Positions 24,207 through 48,620 of a stretch of 53,937 bases of DNA are shown in pieces. The DNA is taken from contig JAIDPF010000040.1 of the NCBI GenBank assembly GCA_029062895.1, positions 1 to 53,937 of the forward strand, in the 5' to 3' direction. Within the stretch, counting starts at the first letter, position 1. The number at the start of each line of letters is the position of its first letter. Made by a program: the position numbers and the translations under genes. Below the pieces are notes generated by a model. It was not told the origin of the DNA, made no database searches, and saw only the letters and a list, made by a program, of their open reading frames with translations. The stretch comes from Lachnospiraceae bacterium (lineage in GTDB: Bacteria; Bacillota; Clostridia; Lachnospirales; Lachnospiraceae).

Positions 24207-24656
24207 ATGGCATATGAAATCAGTACACAGGTAAATGAGATCATACAGTATGTTGTTGTACGGATCGGTGAGGAGCAGTATGGGATTGATATCAAATACA
24301 TAGACAATATCGTCAGGATGCAGAATATCACCAGAGTTCCGAAGGTGCCGGCACATCTGAAAGGCGTGATCAATCTTCGTGGAGAGGTAATTCCTGTTAT
24401 GAGTCTCAGAATAAAGATGGGGATGGATGAAGATGAGATCACAAAGGATACGAGGATTATTATTTTAAAGATCAATCATGACGGAATCGGTCTTATGGTA
24501 GACTCGGTTAAGGAAGTTGTTTCTCTGAATGTGGCAGAGATTGAGAAGGTTTCTTTTGAGAACCGTGAAGAACGGAACGCATTTGTACAGGGGATCGGCA
24601 AGCAGGGAGATTCGTTGATTTCGCTTCTGGATATCAATGCAGTTTTGCAGGAGTAA
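24207..24656 (+). CDS. cheW: Chemotaxis adaptor CheW
   Basis: CheW is the scaffold linking CheA to chemoreceptors. At 149 residues this is a single CheW domain with the usual pattern YVVVRIGEEQYGIDIKYIDN, then an ITRVPKVPAHLKGVINLRGE block followed by a V-I-P-V-M-S-L-R hydrophobic strand, and the late motif GIGLMVDSVKEVVSLN. The ATG follows AGGAGAAAGG. It is separated from cheC by a structured 152-nt gap. Confidence 0.96.
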   Translation: MAYEISTQVNEIIQYVVVRIGEEQYGIDIKYIDNIVRMQNITRVPKVPAHLKGVINLRGEVIPVMSLRIKMGMDEDEITKDTRIIILKINHDGIGLMVDSVKEVVSLNVAEIEKVSFENREERNAFVQGIGKQGDSLISLLDINAVLQE

Positions 24657-24808
24657 ATTGAAAAATAAGCTTGATAGCTTATTTTTCAATCGCAATATTG
24701 TGCCTGCGGCAGCATACAACAAAAAGCTTACGCTTTTCGTTGTCAAGAATTGCATGCTGTGGAAAGGCATGGTTATTAGTGGGAGAATGACAGAAAGGGA
24801 AGTGTTTT
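24657..24808. repeat. Structured cheW-cheC intergenic region with a dispersed 32-bp palindrome
   Basis: The gap opens with a perfect 14-bp stem, TTGAAAAATAAGCT (24658-24671) paired with 24676-24689 around TGAT. The same palindrome recurs at 29960-29991 with a one-base change in the loop. Next come T-G-C-C/G-G-C-A (about 24700) and a stem ACAACAAAAAGC with GCTTTTCGTTGT (one mismatch, about 24715-24744), enclosed by an imperfect GCAAT/ATTGC pair. No T-tract follows, so it is not a clear terminator. Confidence 0.65.
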
Positions 24809-29954: not shown

Positions 29955-29959
29955 TTAGA

Positions 29960-30103
29960 TTGAAAAATAAGCTTTATAGCTTATTTTTCAATCGGCAATT
30001 TGAGTCAGATCCTCAAATTGCGTTGGTCGAAGATGAGAAACCGCCTACACGGATTACTCATCGCGTGTCATCGCAGCAGAGCTGCTTTGACATGGAGGAT
30101 TAG
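29960..30103. repeat. Multi-hairpin intergenic element with dispersed palindrome and hairpin-AUGGAGGAU motif
   Basis: Four consecutive stems fill the gap. The same 32-bp palindrome as at 24658 is at 29960-29991. GCAATTTGAG (29995-30004) pairs with 30012-30021. GATGAG (30032-30037) pairs with CTCATC (30057-30062), enclosing CCG/CGG. TGTCA...GCAGC (30066-30077) pairs with GCTGC...TGACA (30081-30092). The last stem runs straight into ATGGAGGATTAG (30092-30103), a three-codon open frame overlapping a GGAGG. The element ends 13 nt before the next gene. Confidence 0.7.
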
Positions 30104-30116
30104 AGCGAGGTATGAT

Positions 30117-42725: not shown

Positions 42726-42753
42726 GTCGCAGCAGAGCTGCGACATGGAGGAT
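42726..42753 (+). repeat. Hairpin-AUGGAGGAU motif copy upstream of degV
   Basis: GTCGCAGC (42726-42733), loop AGA, GCTGCGAC (42737-42744), then ATGGAGGAT (42745-42753). This matches the motif at 30066-30103 (stem GCAGC-AGA-GCTGC and the GAC-ATGGAGGAT tail) and a third copy at 47746-47776. The GGAGG at 42747-42751 is the ribosome-binding site for degV at ATG 42758. Confidence 0.7.
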
Positions 42754-42757
42754 GAGG

Positions 42758-43633
42758 ATGAACAGAAAATATCAGTTAATTACAGACGCTTCGGCAGATT
42801 TGATTCCGGAATTTGTGCAGGAGCAGGAGATCTACGTGATTCCCATGAATTATACATTGGATTCTAAGGAAATGGTATGTCTTGGTAATGAATCCAGTGA
42901 AACTTTAAAATGGTATTATGAAGGGGAACGGCAGGGAATGATGACGGGTACGTCGCAGGTAACTCCACAGGTATACTTGGATTTCTTTAGGAAATTTGCG
43001 GAAAAGGGAGAATCGTTGCTCTATCTTTCTTTATCGGGAGGATTGTCCGGCACATATGATTCTTCGCAGCTTGCGGCAAATGAAATTATGGAGGAATTTC
43101 CGGACGTTGAGATCTGTTGCGTAGATAGCCGCAGTACGACCGGCGGTCTGCAGTTGTTGATGGAATGCGCTGCAAAGAACAGAGAAGAAGGCATGAGCGT
43201 AAAGGAGAATGCGACATGGCTGGAGGAAAACCGGCTGCGTATCTGTCATTGGTTTATGGTGGAGGATCTGATGTTTTTGAAGCGGGGAGGACGTATATCC
43301 GGCGCTGCGGCAGTCGTTGGCACTGCGCTGAATATCAGACCGATCCTACGGATCGAGAATGATGGAACCCTTGTTAACTTTATAAAGAAACGTGGCAATA
43401 AAGCCGCGCTGAATCAATTAGTGGAATTATATGACAATGCTTCTGAGAAACAGGAGGGAGAGCGGATCTGTATTGTCCATGCAGATAATGAAGAAGCGGC
43501 AGACTATCTGGAGCAGGAAGTGAAGCGGCTCAATCCTACATGTATTACGAACCGGGTTATGCTGTCGCCGGTCATCGGCTGCCACACCGGACCGGGAATG
43601 GCTGCGATTGTTCATTTTGGAAAGCGTATATAA
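42758..43633 (+). CDS. DegV family fatty-acid-binding protein
   Basis: The protein has 291 residues and the DegV pattern: ITDASADL near the start, the threonine-rich M-T-G-T-S-Q-V-T-P motif, LYLSLSGGLSGTYDS, and the C-terminal VIGCHTGPGMAAIVHFG. DegV proteins bind fatty acids and, as FakB, present them to the FakA kinase for phospholipid synthesis. FakA is not nearby. ATG 42758 has GGAGG at proper spacing; ATG 42752 in the same frame directly abuts it. Confidence 0.93.
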   Translation: MNRKYQLITDASADLIPEFVQEQEIYVIPMNYTLDSKEMVCLGNESSETLKWYYEGERQGMMTGTSQVTPQVYLDFFRKFAEKGESLLYLSLSGGLSGTYDSSQLAANEIMEEFPDVEICCVDSRSTTGGLQLLMECAAKNREEGMSVKENATWLEENRLRICHWFMVEDLMFLKRGGRISGAAAVVGTALNIRPILRIENDGTLVNFIKKRGNKAALNQLVELYDNASEKQEGERICIVHADNEEAADYLEQEVKRLNPTCITNRVMLSPVIGCHTGPGMAAIVHFGKRI

Positions 43634-45275: not shown

Positions 45276-46268
45276 ATGACGGGAGTTCCGGAAAATAAAA
45301 ATAACCATCGCAGGCAGAGGATCAACAGACTGAAACGCTTTATTGTTTCCACTTTTTTTGTGTTGATGTTAATTCCTAATATCTTGTGTATTGCTGCATT
45401 TATCCGTATCAGCGGTCTGGATCGTCAGATCCATGAACTGACCGAAAGACTGGATGGGATTGCTATGGCGGTGTCAATTGAGGCGCGGGATTCGGAGACT
45501 GATATTTATGCCGGTAATGGCAGCGAGGCGATAGAAACATCCGGCGAAGTCATTACGGTAGTGCAGGACGAGATGCTGTCTTCTCAACAGAATACTGCGG
45601 GTGCGGATGATTATGAATCAGTCAGGAGGGTATGCCTGACTTTTGATGATGGACCTTCGGCTAATACGGACGTGATTCTGGACATCCTTGCCCAGTATGG
45701 TGTCAAGGCGACTTTTTTTGTGAATGGCAAGCCGGGTTATGAAGACCAGTATCAGCGCATTGTAGATGAGGGTCATACTTTGGCGATGCATTCTTACAGC
45801 CACAAGTATCAGGAACTCTATTCCGATATAGATGCCTTTACGGAAGATTTTTTTGAAATTCAAAGTTATCTTATGGACGTAACCGGTATACAATGTAAGT
45901 ATTACAGGTTTCCGGGGGGAAGCAGTAATACTGTTTGCAATGTAAATATGCAGGATTGTATTGACTTTTTGAACGAGCAGGATATAGTATACTTTGACTG
46001 GAATGTTTCTAGTGGAGATGCAACGAGAAATTATGTCAGTACAACCCAGATCGTGAATAATGTCATGATGCCGGTGGAAAATAATAGCTGGAATACCTAT
46101 GTGGTTTTGATGCATGATGCAGTAGGAAAAGAGACTACTGTTGAAGCGTTGCCGATCATTATTGAAAGATTACAGGCAATGGACAATCTGGTCATCGTCC
46201 CGATCACGGATTCGGTACATACGGTGCAGCATGTCCTTCCTGATGAAGAAAACGCAATGGAGGATTAA
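45276..46268 (+). CDS. Membrane-anchored polysaccharide deacetylase (NodB/CE4)
   Basis: The protein has 330 residues: a membrane segment (about 22-45), a short coiled linker, and a NodB domain (about 115-310). CE4 metal and catalytic motifs are present: T-F-D-D-G-P (D124, D125), H-S-Y-S-H (H172, H176) and R-F-P-G-G-S. It would remove acetyl groups from peptidoglycan GlcNAc or a surface polymer. The terminal codons (N-A-M-E-D-stop) also supply the GGAGG for the bactofilin gene, which starts one base after the stop codon. Confidence 0.92.
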   Translation: MTGVPENKNNHRRQRINRLKRFIVSTFFVLMLIPNILCIAAFIRISGLDRQIHELTERLDGIAMAVSIEARDSETDIYAGNGSEAIETSGEVITVVQDEMLSSQQNTAGADDYESVRRVCLTFDDGPSANTDVILDILAQYGVKATFFVNGKPGYEDQYQRIVDEGHTLAMHSYSHKYQELYSDIDAFTEDFFEIQSYLMDVTGIQCKYYRFPGGSSNTVCNVNMQDCIDFLNEQDIVYFDWNVSSGDATRNYVSTTQIVNNVMMPVENNSWNTYVVLMHDAVGKETTVEALPIIIERLQAMDNLVIVPITDSVHTVQHVLPDEENAMED

Positions 46269-46269
46269 G

Positions 46270-47736
46270 ATGGGATTTTTTCAGAATTTAAAAGAAGATT
46301 ACGAAGCGGCAGTGGATGAACTGCTGGGCGGAGAGTCTGCAATGCCGGAGGAAGAAGCACCCAAGACGAAACAAAGCAGAGGCAGAAAAAAGTCTTCTGA
46401 AACAGTGGAGGATACAGAGCAGGTAGCGTTGAACCTTGATATGATGGCTCCGGAAGAAGATACATTAGAAGAAGAGATTATCCATGAAGATCTTGTCGAA
46501 GATGATGATATGGAACTGGAGTCAGAGATTGTCAGTGAAATGACAGATGTATTGGAAGAAACAGAACAGGACGGAATATCAGAGAGCGAAATGGATTTTT
46601 CTGATATTTCAGCTTTATTCGCTGACGAGACGGAGGAGGGAGTAGGCATAAGTGAGGAATTGTCTGCTGTTGACGAGGAAATAGCCGTTGTTGACGAGGA
46701 ACTGGCAGGGGAGGAAGTCATAGTCGATAAGACAGTGGAGAATGAGGAACCTGCGGACGATGAAAGTCCGGTTGATGAGGGGATGGATGACGGGATAGAT
46801 GAAATAGAAGAAATAGAAGAAATAGAAGAAGATTTTGCAGATGACGAACTTGACGACGATCTGGATGACGACGATCTGGATGATGACGATTTAAATGACG
46901 TTGATTTTGACGATGATGATCTGGGAGACGTCGTTCAAGATGATCCGAAAGAGGAAGCCGCGGAGCTGCCGGAAGAACCGGGGGATATATCAGAGCTGGA
47001 GGAGCTGCCGGAGGAACCGGGGGATATATCAGAGTTGGAAGAACTGCCGGAGAAACCGGAGGATATATCAGAGCCGGAAGAACTGCCGGAAGAGCCGGTG
47101 AAAATTCCAAAAGCAGAGGCACCCAGCATATTTAGGAAGTTAGATGAACATCAGAATAATAAAGCAGATATAGTGAAGGAGGAGGAAAAATCCAGTATGG
47201 CAGTAGAAAATTTGGTTGAAGAGGAAGCATCATCAAAGACAGTGATACCAGAGCTTGCAGAGGAAGAAGTAATGGAAGTATCGGATGAGACCGCGACGAT
47301 TACAAAGGGTATGAAGGTTGCGGGTAATATCAAGAGCAACGGCAATCTTGATCTGGAAGGAGTTGTGGTCGGCAACATCAGAATTGCGGGCAAGGCCAAT
47401 ATTTTTGGAGAAATCAATGGTGATACGGAAGCCGGCAATGTCTATGCGGATGGCGCGCAGATTACGGGTGCCGTTAAGACGACGGGAAGCGTCAAGGTGG
47501 CGCAGAGTTCTGTCATTATCGGTGATATTGTAGCGACTAGCGCGGTTATAGCCGGCGCTGTAAAGGGAAATATTGATGTCCACGGACCGGTTATTTTGGA
47601 CTCTACGGCAATTGTGATGGGCGATATTAAGTCACAGTCAGTGCAGATCACTTCCGGCGCTGTAGTGGAAGGAATGTGTTCACAGTGTTATGCAAAGGTA
47701 AGTCCGGCATCCTTCTTTGATCAGTTAGGGAAATAG
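46270..47736 (+). CDS. Bactofilin with long acidic repeat-rich N-terminus
   Basis: The protein has 488 residues. A short start (GFFQNLKEDYEAAVDELL) leads into a ~300-residue strongly acidic, probably disordered region with three repeat types: E-E-I tandem, D-D-D-L tandem and a 13-residue unit ELPEEPGDISELE present about 3.5 times at 46963-47118. The C-terminal bactofilin beta-helix (about 338-470) shows ITKGMKVAGNIKSNGNLDLEG in blocks and repeated G-x-V/I turns. Bactofilins polymerise into membrane-linked scaffolds for cell-wall enzymes, here probably the adjacent deacetylase. Most bactofilins are under 200 residues, so the tail is exceptional. Confidence 0.9.
   Translation: MGFFQNLKEDYEAAVDELLGGESAMPEEEAPKTKQSRGRKKSSETVEDTEQVALNLDMMAPEEDTLEEEIIHEDLVEDDDMELESEIVSEMTDVLEETEQDGISESEMDFSDISALFADETEEGVGISEELSAVDEEIAVVDEELAGEEVIVDKTVENEEPADDESPVDEGMDDGIDEIEEIEEIEEDFADDELDDDLDDDDLDDDDLNDVDFDDDDLGDVVQDDPKEEAAELPEEPGDISELEELPEEPGDISELEELPEKPEDISEPEELPEEPVKIPKAEAPSIFRKLDEHQNNKADIVKEEEKSSMAVENLVEEEASSKTVIPELAEEEVMEVSDETATITKGMKVAGNIKSNGNLDLEGVVVGNIRIAGKANIFGEINGDTEAGNVYADGAQITGAVKTTGSVKVAQSSVIIGDIVATSAVIAGAVKGNIDVHGPVILDSTAIVMGDIKSQSVQITSGAVVEGMCSQCYAKVSPASFFDQLGK
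46963..47118 (+). repeat. 39-bp tandem repeat inside the bactofilin gene
   Basis: Units at 46963-47001, 47002-47040, 47041-47079 and a diverged one at 47080-47118 each encode E-L-P-E-x-P-x-D-I-S-E-x-E or a variant. The in-frame 39-bp period would allow repeat number to vary by slippage without breaking the gene. Confidence 0.85.
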
Positions 47737-47745
47737 ATTGCGGTT

Positions 47746-47776
47746 GCAGTAAAACTGCTCTGACATGGTGGATTAG
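47746..47776 (+). repeat. Hairpin-AUGGNGGAU motif copy upstream of pyrH
   Basis: GCAGT (47746-47750), loop AAA, ACTGC (47754-47758), then TCTGAC and ATGGTGGATTAG (47765-47776). Against the copy at 30073-30107, 28 of 35 aligned bases match, and two of the changes (C to T and G to A) are partners in the stem, keeping it paired. The Shine-Dalgarno is broken here (GGTGG) but the three-codon open frame is kept. Confidence 0.65.
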
Positions 47777-47797
47777 AATGACAGCATGGGAGATTCT

Positions 47798-48487
47798 ATG
47801 AGAATATTATTAAAGTTAAGTGGTGAAGCGTTATCTGTAGAGGGAAAGCGCTTTGATGACGAGGTCATTACCGGAATTGCGCTTCAGGTAAAGGAACTGC
47901 TGGCGAAAGGATACCAGATTGGTATTACGATCGGCGGAGGTAATTTCTGGCGGGGAAGAACCAGCGAAAATATCGACCGGACGAAAGCAGATCAGATTGG
48001 TATGCTGGCAACGGTTATGAACTGTATCTATGTATCTGAAATATTTCGCTCCTATGGGATCGAGACAGAAATCCTGACGCCGTTTATCTGCTCCACATTT
48101 ACGAAGCAGTTTTCAAAAGACACTGCAACAGCGTGTTTTCAGAGTGGTAAGGCAGTCTTTTTTGCCGGGGGTACGGGGCATCCGTATTTTTCGACAGATA
48201 CCGGAGTTGTATTGCGGGCAATCGAAGTAGATGCAGACGGGATTTATCTTGCCAAGGCGATTGATGGTATCTATGATGATGACCCGTGCAGAAACCCTAA
48301 CGCAAAGAAATATGATGAGATTACGATCGATGAGGTGATTGCACGTAATCTGCAGGTAATAGATATGACAGCGTCCATCATGGCAAGGGACAATCATATG
48401 CCGCTGTGGGTATTTGACCTGACGGAAACGAATAGTATCTTAAATGCAGTCAGCGGAAATTTTACGGGAACCAAGGTAACGGTATAA
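47798..48487 (+). CDS. pyrH: UMP kinase
   Basis: UMP kinase makes UDP from UMP. The 229-residue protein has the amino-acid-kinase pattern: ILLKLSGEALSVEGK at the N-terminus, ITIGGGNFWRGRT, ADQIGMLATVMN and VFFAGGTGHPYFSTDT. The start is ATG 47798 (GGGAG 5 nt upstream); ATG 47786 in the same frame would add M-G-D-S. Normally it follows tsf; here about 14 kb lies between. Confidence 0.96.
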   Translation: MRILLKLSGEALSVEGKRFDDEVITGIALQVKELLAKGYQIGITIGGGNFWRGRTSENIDRTKADQIGMLATVMNCIYVSEIFRSYGIETEILTPFICSTFTKQFSKDTATACFQSGKAVFFAGGTGHPYFSTDTGVVLRAIEVDADGIYLAKAIDGIYDDDPCRNPNAKKYDEITIDEVIARNLQVIDMTASIMARDNHMPLWVFDLTETNSILNAVSGNFTGTKVTV

Positions 48488-48620
48488 GATATAATAACCG
48501 CAGAAGAAAAACAAGCGACGCGAAGCGACATTTGTTTTTCTGCGGTTATTAACGAGAAAGCGTTTGACGAAGTCAAACATGGAGTGCGAAAGCACGGGCT
48601 TTCGAGTTTAGATGATATAA
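48488..48620. repeat. Structured insertion-like element between pyrH and frr
   Basis: A GATATAA direct repeat (48488-48494 and 48614-48620, 126-bp offset) bounds two structures. A 19-bp stem pairs 48493-48514 (3-nt bulge) with 48532-48550, with a T-run inside its right arm. A three-stem junction follows: GAAAGC (48556-48561) with GCTTTC (48598-48603) encloses GTTTGAC-GAA-GTCAAAC (48562-48578) and GTGC-GAAA-GCAC (48584-48595). Size and direct-repeat layout resemble the motA-motB element. The first stem may end pyrH transcripts. Confidence 0.6.

Follow-up and report, generated by a model that had tools for sequence, protein, structure and literature searches.

The DNA analysed here (the window) is a contig of 53,937 nucleotides from a Lachnospiraceae bacterium (GenBank assembly GCA_029062895.1, contig JAIDPF010000040.1). 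Its genes include one taken for degV, as well as frr and pyrH, the product of the latter having its nearest match in Lachnospiraceae bacterium UBA1748 (81%). A preliminary description had pointed to a hairpin, followed by a three-codon AUG-NNN-GAU-UAG frame, that recurs in three of the gaps between genes, and had suggested a mobile translation-control cassette. All three copies are there, at 30066-30103 (copy 1), 42726-42760 (copy 2) and 47746-47776 (copy 3). By our count, copies 1 and 3 share 27 of 35 bases (28 had been claimed), and the reported change of a C-G pair to T-A is present.

Two other kinds of repeat lie near pyrH. Tandem 39-base repeats (46963-47105) are found 5′ of the gene, within the ORF at 46141-47736. 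A different hairpin repeat, with a long stem (AATAACCGCAG..), occupies 48487-48613 between pyrH and frr. It has GATATAA on both sides, which by eye looks like a target duplication; it is present at the same site in one related locus (L181), is absent from three others (L180, L182, L183), and has further 94-97% matches in relatives.

The recurrent hairpin is real, and the phenomenon is larger than first described. That is, the hairpin of copy 1 is not free-standing and forms the 3′ end of a folded element of about 145 nt, which ends at a Shine-Dalgarno (SD) sequence. The features are as follows:

29956..30104, + strand: full-length element, copy 1 (unit 1: H1-H2-H3-D-SD), 149 bases; matches model R2 at 146.4 bits, E 4.7e-38
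29959..29992, + strand: hairpin H1 (module A), ATTGAAAAATAAG..CTTATTTTTCAAT; repeated pattern, 7/15 pairs changed on both sides
29995..30021, + strand: hairpin H2 (module B), GCAATTTGAG..CTCAAATTGC; 5/10 pairs changed on both sides
30005-30009, + strand: 5′ side of the pseudoknot, TCAGA, within the H2 loop; pairs with TTTGA
30032..30062, + strand: hairpin H3 (module C), GATGAGAAACCGC..GCGGATTTCTCATC; 10/12 pairs changed on both sides
30066..30092, + strand: module D, with an inner stem at 30073-30085 (4/5 pairs changed on both sides) and a weaker alternative outer stem, TGTCA/TGACA (P 0.0027)
30086..30090, + strand: 3′ strand of the pseudoknot, TTTGA, paired (one G-U included) with the TCAGA in the H2 loop; 3/5 pairs changed on both sides
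30092..30103, + strand: tail ATGGAGGATTAG, with the SD GGAGG at 30094-30098; doubles as the mini-ORF of the preliminary description; read from the tail statistics
24654..24779, + strand: second unit type, A-E, with tail GGAAAGGCATGGTTATTAG; R2 match (E 1.2e-12, to 24776) and scan for the E tail
42726..42760, + strand: copy 2, a D-only unit; GGAGG 6 nt 5′ of the start codon taken for degV
47738..47777, + strand: copy 3, a D-only unit ahead of pyrH; R1 match and comparison of orthologous sites

With its GGAGG so placed, copy 2 can provide the gene taken for degV with a ribosome-binding site, as had been proposed, and it is the only one of the three with canonical spacing in the window. Copies 1 and 3 have a second SD-like stretch between tail and gene; in copy 3 this is a separate GGGAG at 47788, closer to the pyrH start. 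At the copy 2 site, two relatives (L180, L183) carry a different stem, GAGC[C/T]GCC..GGCGG. The hairpin of copy 3 is missing from L180, L181 (which keeps part of the tail) and L183, and L182 has another arrangement.

Module D, the hairpin together with its GACATGGAGGATTAG tail, is highly repeated. The pattern GCAG..CTGC..GACATGG has 39 sites in the genome against 0 for the reversed-pattern control, and a covariance model built from these 39 pattern-matched copies (R1) finds 71 matches at E <= 0.01 in the 3.07 Mb, 115-contig genome (150 of 1848 candidates scored). The same search, which had been proposed with the preliminary description, gives matches in 8 of 35 genomes of the genus: five have 40 to 71 matches and three have one or two. 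Within the window, a 28-base motif, GCAGCAGAGCTGC-NNN-GACATGGAGGAT, occurs once at up to 3 mismatches (0/100 shuffles). Covariation, for which a statistical test had also been proposed, is strong across genera (see below) and thin inside the genome itself; the strong signal is the contribution of other genera. Among the 39 D copies, 2 of 10 pairs changed on both sides: an inner-stem change of C-G to U-A in 12/30 cells, i.e. two subtypes, and an outer-stem change of A-U to G-C in 7/38 cells, in copies with doubtful alignment. In the corresponding control, 430/500 shuffles match the observed number of both-side-changed pairs and 0/500 match the number of such cells.

Bases 5′ of many D copies are repeated as well. 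The H1 pattern has 66 genome matches against 0 for its reversed-pattern control, and the element of copy 1 matches positions 1-146 of the element at locus L023 with 91% identity (blastn). Units form mosaics, which include D-only units (copies 2 and 3), units lacking H3, and the types A-E (..GGAAAGGCATGGTTATTAG) and F (..GGCGGCATGGGGGATTAG-like) with related tails. This third type, F, was seen at L099, L071 and L085, with TGTGAAAA..TTTCACACC, GAAAAACGC..GCGTTTTTC and a hairpin with a CATGG tail.

The fold was examined in an alignment of 31 units (A2), 18 from elsewhere and 13 from the clade of the window. From 46 elements wanted, 4 were left unparsed and 11 of the 42 parsed were excluded because modules were missing or supernumerary, the strand was wrong or the element was redundant (L286, L191-L196, L198, L036, L042, L255). 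The structure comprising H1, H2, H3, D and the pseudoknot is paired in 96.2% of 1431 cells, a figure that leans towards the structure because the structure was derived from A2 itself. Both sides changed at 29 of 47 pairs (188 such cells). None of 500 shuffles reaches any of five measures, and controls with the partner slid by 1-3 columns leave 3-8 both-side-changed pairs. When 3′ arms were reassigned among sequences 2,000 times, the observed pairing was never reached for any helix; the same holds within the 18 units from elsewhere alone. Covariation thus shows the fold to be conserved.

The pseudoknot joins the H2 loop (columns 52-56 of A2) to bases between D and the SD (columns 138-142, just 3′ of D). 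We followed it in 20 loci outside A2, hand-chosen from R2 matches and found by a four-hairpin model without the pseudoknot; 4 of their 12 genomes (G177, G349, G357, G335) had contributed other copies to A2. In these test loci the H2 loop and the 3′ strand have a longest complement of 8.05 bp on average, compared with a permuted mean of 5.6 and maximum of 7.1. Summed over the 20 loci, it reaches 161, whereas the permuted sums average 112.5 and peak at 142 (0 of 20,000 permutations). Examples are GTCGGAGC/GCTCCGAC, CCGCAGGCA/TGCCTGCGG, TTCTGAGCG/CGCTCAGAA and GACGAGC/GCTCGTC; at three of the 20 (L337, L334, L336) the complement is only 5 bp. Copy 1 itself folds at -63 kcal/mol (z -7.7) in pseudoknot-free folding, which gives the outer D stem. 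Some bases of this outer stem, whose variants include TGTCA/TGACA and TTCC/GGAA, also belong to the pseudoknot strand; comparative support for the stem (P 0.0027) comes from a test that detected D in 32 of 40 elements (8 without) and ignored relatedness. At three loci (L326, L327, L332) we also observed CCTCC between H3 and D, the complement of that unit's own SD GGAGG and a possible case of SD sequestration.

Units often sit at gene starts. If a gene start is taken as the start of any ORF with 80 or more codons (40 or more where it runs open off the end of the stretch), 52 of the 71 D copies have a same-strand start at -8..+60 nt, compared with 2/71 in the opposite-strand control. The spacing from GGAGG to start is 4-13 nt in 36/71 copies, 25 of these having exactly 6. 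The remaining 19 copies have no qualifying start nearby, and in five of them another unit comes next, as read from the rows. In the 20 test loci, all from other genera, a same-strand start lies within -16..+60 of the unit end in 19, against 2 on the opposite strand (-8..+60). Likewise, A-E tails from the window's own and related loci have a start in 21/32 cases, nine at an identical offset, against 4/32 on the opposite strand. On the left side, the flank of 32 full units reads AG in 32/32 and TAG in 28/32, with a G-rich, SD-like stretch before it. The stop codon of the upstream gene coincides with the left edge of H1 (offset 0 or +5) in 15 of 70 H1 rows, of which 19 have no upstream gene and some are the palindrome read backwards.

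Orthologous sites differ in content. The comparison covers pairs that happened to be among the retrieved loci and is not a census. A proB-like leader carries the element in L006 and none in L044. H3 is missing as a block, between short direct repeats, from some orthologous copies (L020/L254, L064/L248/L259, L027/L265), H2 stands in place of H1 in L029/L216, and another unit is found at the same site in L067/L229. In other cases (L001/L249, L027/L224, L060/L256) a full unit is common to the relatives. Taken together, relatives with flanks about 82-96% identical differ in modules at the same site. At many of the sites modules are exchanged and the relative's site is not cleanly empty, a difference that recombination between copies could also produce. 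In L060 and L256, we noted that the tail to the left of a unit and the one to its right have the same species-specific variants (ATA versus ACA), as if by gene conversion or target duplication. Across the 32 full units, the SD-like flanks on the two sides of a unit resemble each other more than permuted pairs do (P 0.018; one reversed match of 33 was excluded), a weak signal on which we do not propose a clean target duplication. A search for a transposase partner (Y1_Tnp) found none tied to the element. The window's own genome has one match, at a seemingly ordinary IS200-like locus with no unit alongside in 1601 bases; matches also occur in G016 (in pieces), G022, G002 and G042, and there is none in the carriers G008 and G012, whose assemblies are incomplete (88% and 72% complete).

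We think it probable that the element is a modular, non-autonomous interspersed repeat, structured, which spreads into ribosome-binding sites and rebuilds them. The analysis establishes the fold (through covariation), the large number of copies, their location ahead of genes and, at some orthologous sites, absence or exchange of modules. A full unit of about 145 nt comprises H1, H2, H3, D and the pseudoknot linking the H2 loop to the five bases immediately past D; an SD comes next and, often one base after TTAG, a start codon. In the mechanism we propose, such a unit would insert into a ribosome-binding site after TAG. The previous SD would then lie to the left of the unit, and the 3′ end of the unit (D, pseudoknot strand and SD) would serve as leader of the downstream gene. 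With stop codons (TAG/TGA) at its left end and an SD at its right, the element may be tolerated inside tightly packed operons. In particular, a repeat that ends in an SD at the right spacing would explain how insertions survive between ribosome-binding site and start codon within operons. It would also imply that, in these bacteria, many genes have leaders made of a single pseudoknotted RNA that is held in common and can be exchanged. The D/pseudoknot fold adjoining the SD may additionally tune initiation.

A possible, if rather unlikely, alternative is a regulatory RNA of the host, resembling a riboswitch or leader, whose duplication ahead of many genes would have created a translational regulon, with the pseudoknot and the outer D stem competing to open or close the SD. 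The compensatory changes in the pseudoknot right beside the SD fit this reading, as does the overlap of the outer D stem with the pseudoknot strand, although the outer-stem P value carries the detection rate and disregard of relatedness given above. Mismatches are also informative here, since selection on RNA should tolerate G-U better than A-C. In D stems of the window's own clade, G-U mismatches outnumber A-C by 17 to 4 (P 0.007), or by 14 to 4 with each hairpin counted once; 4 of 113 D copies were skipped in this count and, by eye, some 3 of the 17 cases of G-U seem to be mis-registered. The H1, H2, H3 and E stems of the same clade have 24 G-U versus 30 A-C (P 0.50), i.e. no RNA-strand bias, and in A2 G-U pairs are rare (12 of 1431 cells, versus about 9 A-C counted by hand on aligned rows). 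All of these numbers count copies, not independent events. The preliminary description had taken the compensatory change as an argument for RNA: pairing is indeed strongly conserved, yet an excess of G-U is confined to D. From these small counts, D may be used as RNA, whereas the other hairpins would be needed mainly for propagation or are too young to tell. The result for H1, H2, H3 and E speaks against selection on RNA only, and it counts against the interspersed-repeat reading too. Against a host regulon there stand, in addition, the module differences between close relatives at the same site and the downstream genes, which look unrelated when judged by eye from their start sequences (pyrG-, pth-, proB-, degV- and fabG-like).

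Some, but not all, relatives of the bacterium carry the element. With one full unit as query, blastn finds it in 16 of 392 genomes of the order (E <= 1e-5); R2 finds it in 30 of the 392, in 19 of 173 genera and two families, with E-values to 1e-43, from 7 candidates scored per genome and with the weakest matches (about 40 bits and less) counted by score alone. A class-wide draw gives matches in 3/391 genomes, all of the window's own family. A match of 74.7% covering 54% of the query (E 2e-4) lies on an unannotated gut phage scaffold, MT836788.1; though partial, it reads like an entire unit, and by eye it has a pseudoknot that fits, CCGCAGGC/GCCTGCGG. Viral contigs scanned with an exact pattern gave 0 matches, and plasmid records gave none to the element. 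A bolder reading, which we regard as unlikely, would make the element a mobile regulatory RNA: a pseudoknotted switch with its own SD that inserts at gene starts, brings dozens of unrelated genes per genome under shared translational control, and spreads between species and onto phages.

The mini-ORF of the preliminary description fares worse. Whether as the minimal AUG-NNN-GAU-UAG ORF or as a longer leader ORF from the NTG of H1, control of the gene by stalling or coupling is very improbable. Its best support is that the frame from the H1 NTG is open to the tail in 37/56 units, against 0 and 9 for the other frames. This NTG is, however, missing at L337, L328 and L336, and 31 ungapped copies show 14 synonymous changes versus 13.3 expected and 1 stop versus 2.2, i.e. 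no coding bias. Among the 97 tails with ATGG (out of 113), the stop at codon 4 is present in just 54, so that a conserved start and stop of a small upstream ORF was not found in this set; the SD guanines after the codon-4 position are kept in 90/97 and 88/97. The A-E unit end, CATGGTTATTAG, has no stop at codon 4, and in 9 of the 20 test loci the tail ATG (GTG in one of them) opens a frame that continues into the gene (offset -13). On the inconstant stop, the tail start in frame with the gene and the lack of coding bias, we rejected both the mini-ORF and the leader-peptide readings. What stands of the cassette first proposed is that it is recurrent, structured, spreading and able to supply a ribosome-binding site; the three-codon ORF falls away as a working part. 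Finally, an explanation by unremarkable hairpins between genes (terminators, or a resemblance due to chance) next to a common SD is refuted and keeps next to no probability, for although hairpins and SDs are generally common, the reversed-pattern controls (39 vs 0 for D, 66 vs 0 for H1), the R2 E-values, the cross-genus covariation and the position before starts all oppose it.

How does the element compare with known systems? Scanning the window against Rfam 15 gave 0 matches that reach the gathering score of any family. TD-2 RNA (RF03162) has two long hairpins of similar make-up and matches four A-E units weakly (L071, L073, L089, L091). The best of these matches, 44.0 bits (E 7e-4), lies below the gathering score of 48.7, all are antisense, and 12 scanned loci with full units gave none; one possibility is that the TD-2 family describes a related palindromic repeat read from the opposite strand. 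A separate observation from the retrieved loci is a T-box leader match on the minus strand of L290 (505-701; 77.1 bits, gathering score 93), its 5′ end cut by the end of the stretch.

Several families of repeats share individual traits with the element. Non-autonomous elements derived from IS200/IS605 have subterminal hairpins and insert 3′ of a fixed short sequence. They would resemble the TAG|unit..TAG arrangement seen here, but no associated TnpA was found in our searches. Rickettsia palindromic elements are palindromic repeats with an open frame, whereas our element has no sign of peptide selection. REP/BIME, ERIC and Correia elements are short intergenic repeats able to affect mRNA in operons; we know of none with an SD-anchored 3′ end, and we set them apart by description.

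A close parallel by description is with the BOX elements of pneumococcus, which are short, modular, interspersed intergenic repeats, present in many copies per genome and forming stem-loops when transcribed, according to the parts of PMC3049150 covered here. BOX modules are gained and lost, and boxA and boxC can stimulate downstream genes (same parts of PMC3049150). Our element shares the separable modules, with units lacking A, B or C and with module differences at orthologous sites. Pneumococcal dispersed repeats are, however, over-represented between convergent genes, away from start codons, and those parts of PMC3049150, which also mention REP/BIME, ERIC and Correia elements, describe no anchoring of the kind seen here, where units end at an SD and start codon in gene orientation and contain a pseudoknot. 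No description of such an element was found among the literature titles and abstract openings listed, or in parts of PMC3049150 and PMC8040213. Dispersed palindromic repeats are already known; here, a covariance model finds the element across genera. With the window free of Rfam matches at the gathering score and no description in the literature so covered, we call it a new form of interspersed repeat, one that is anchored at gene starts and pseudoknotted.
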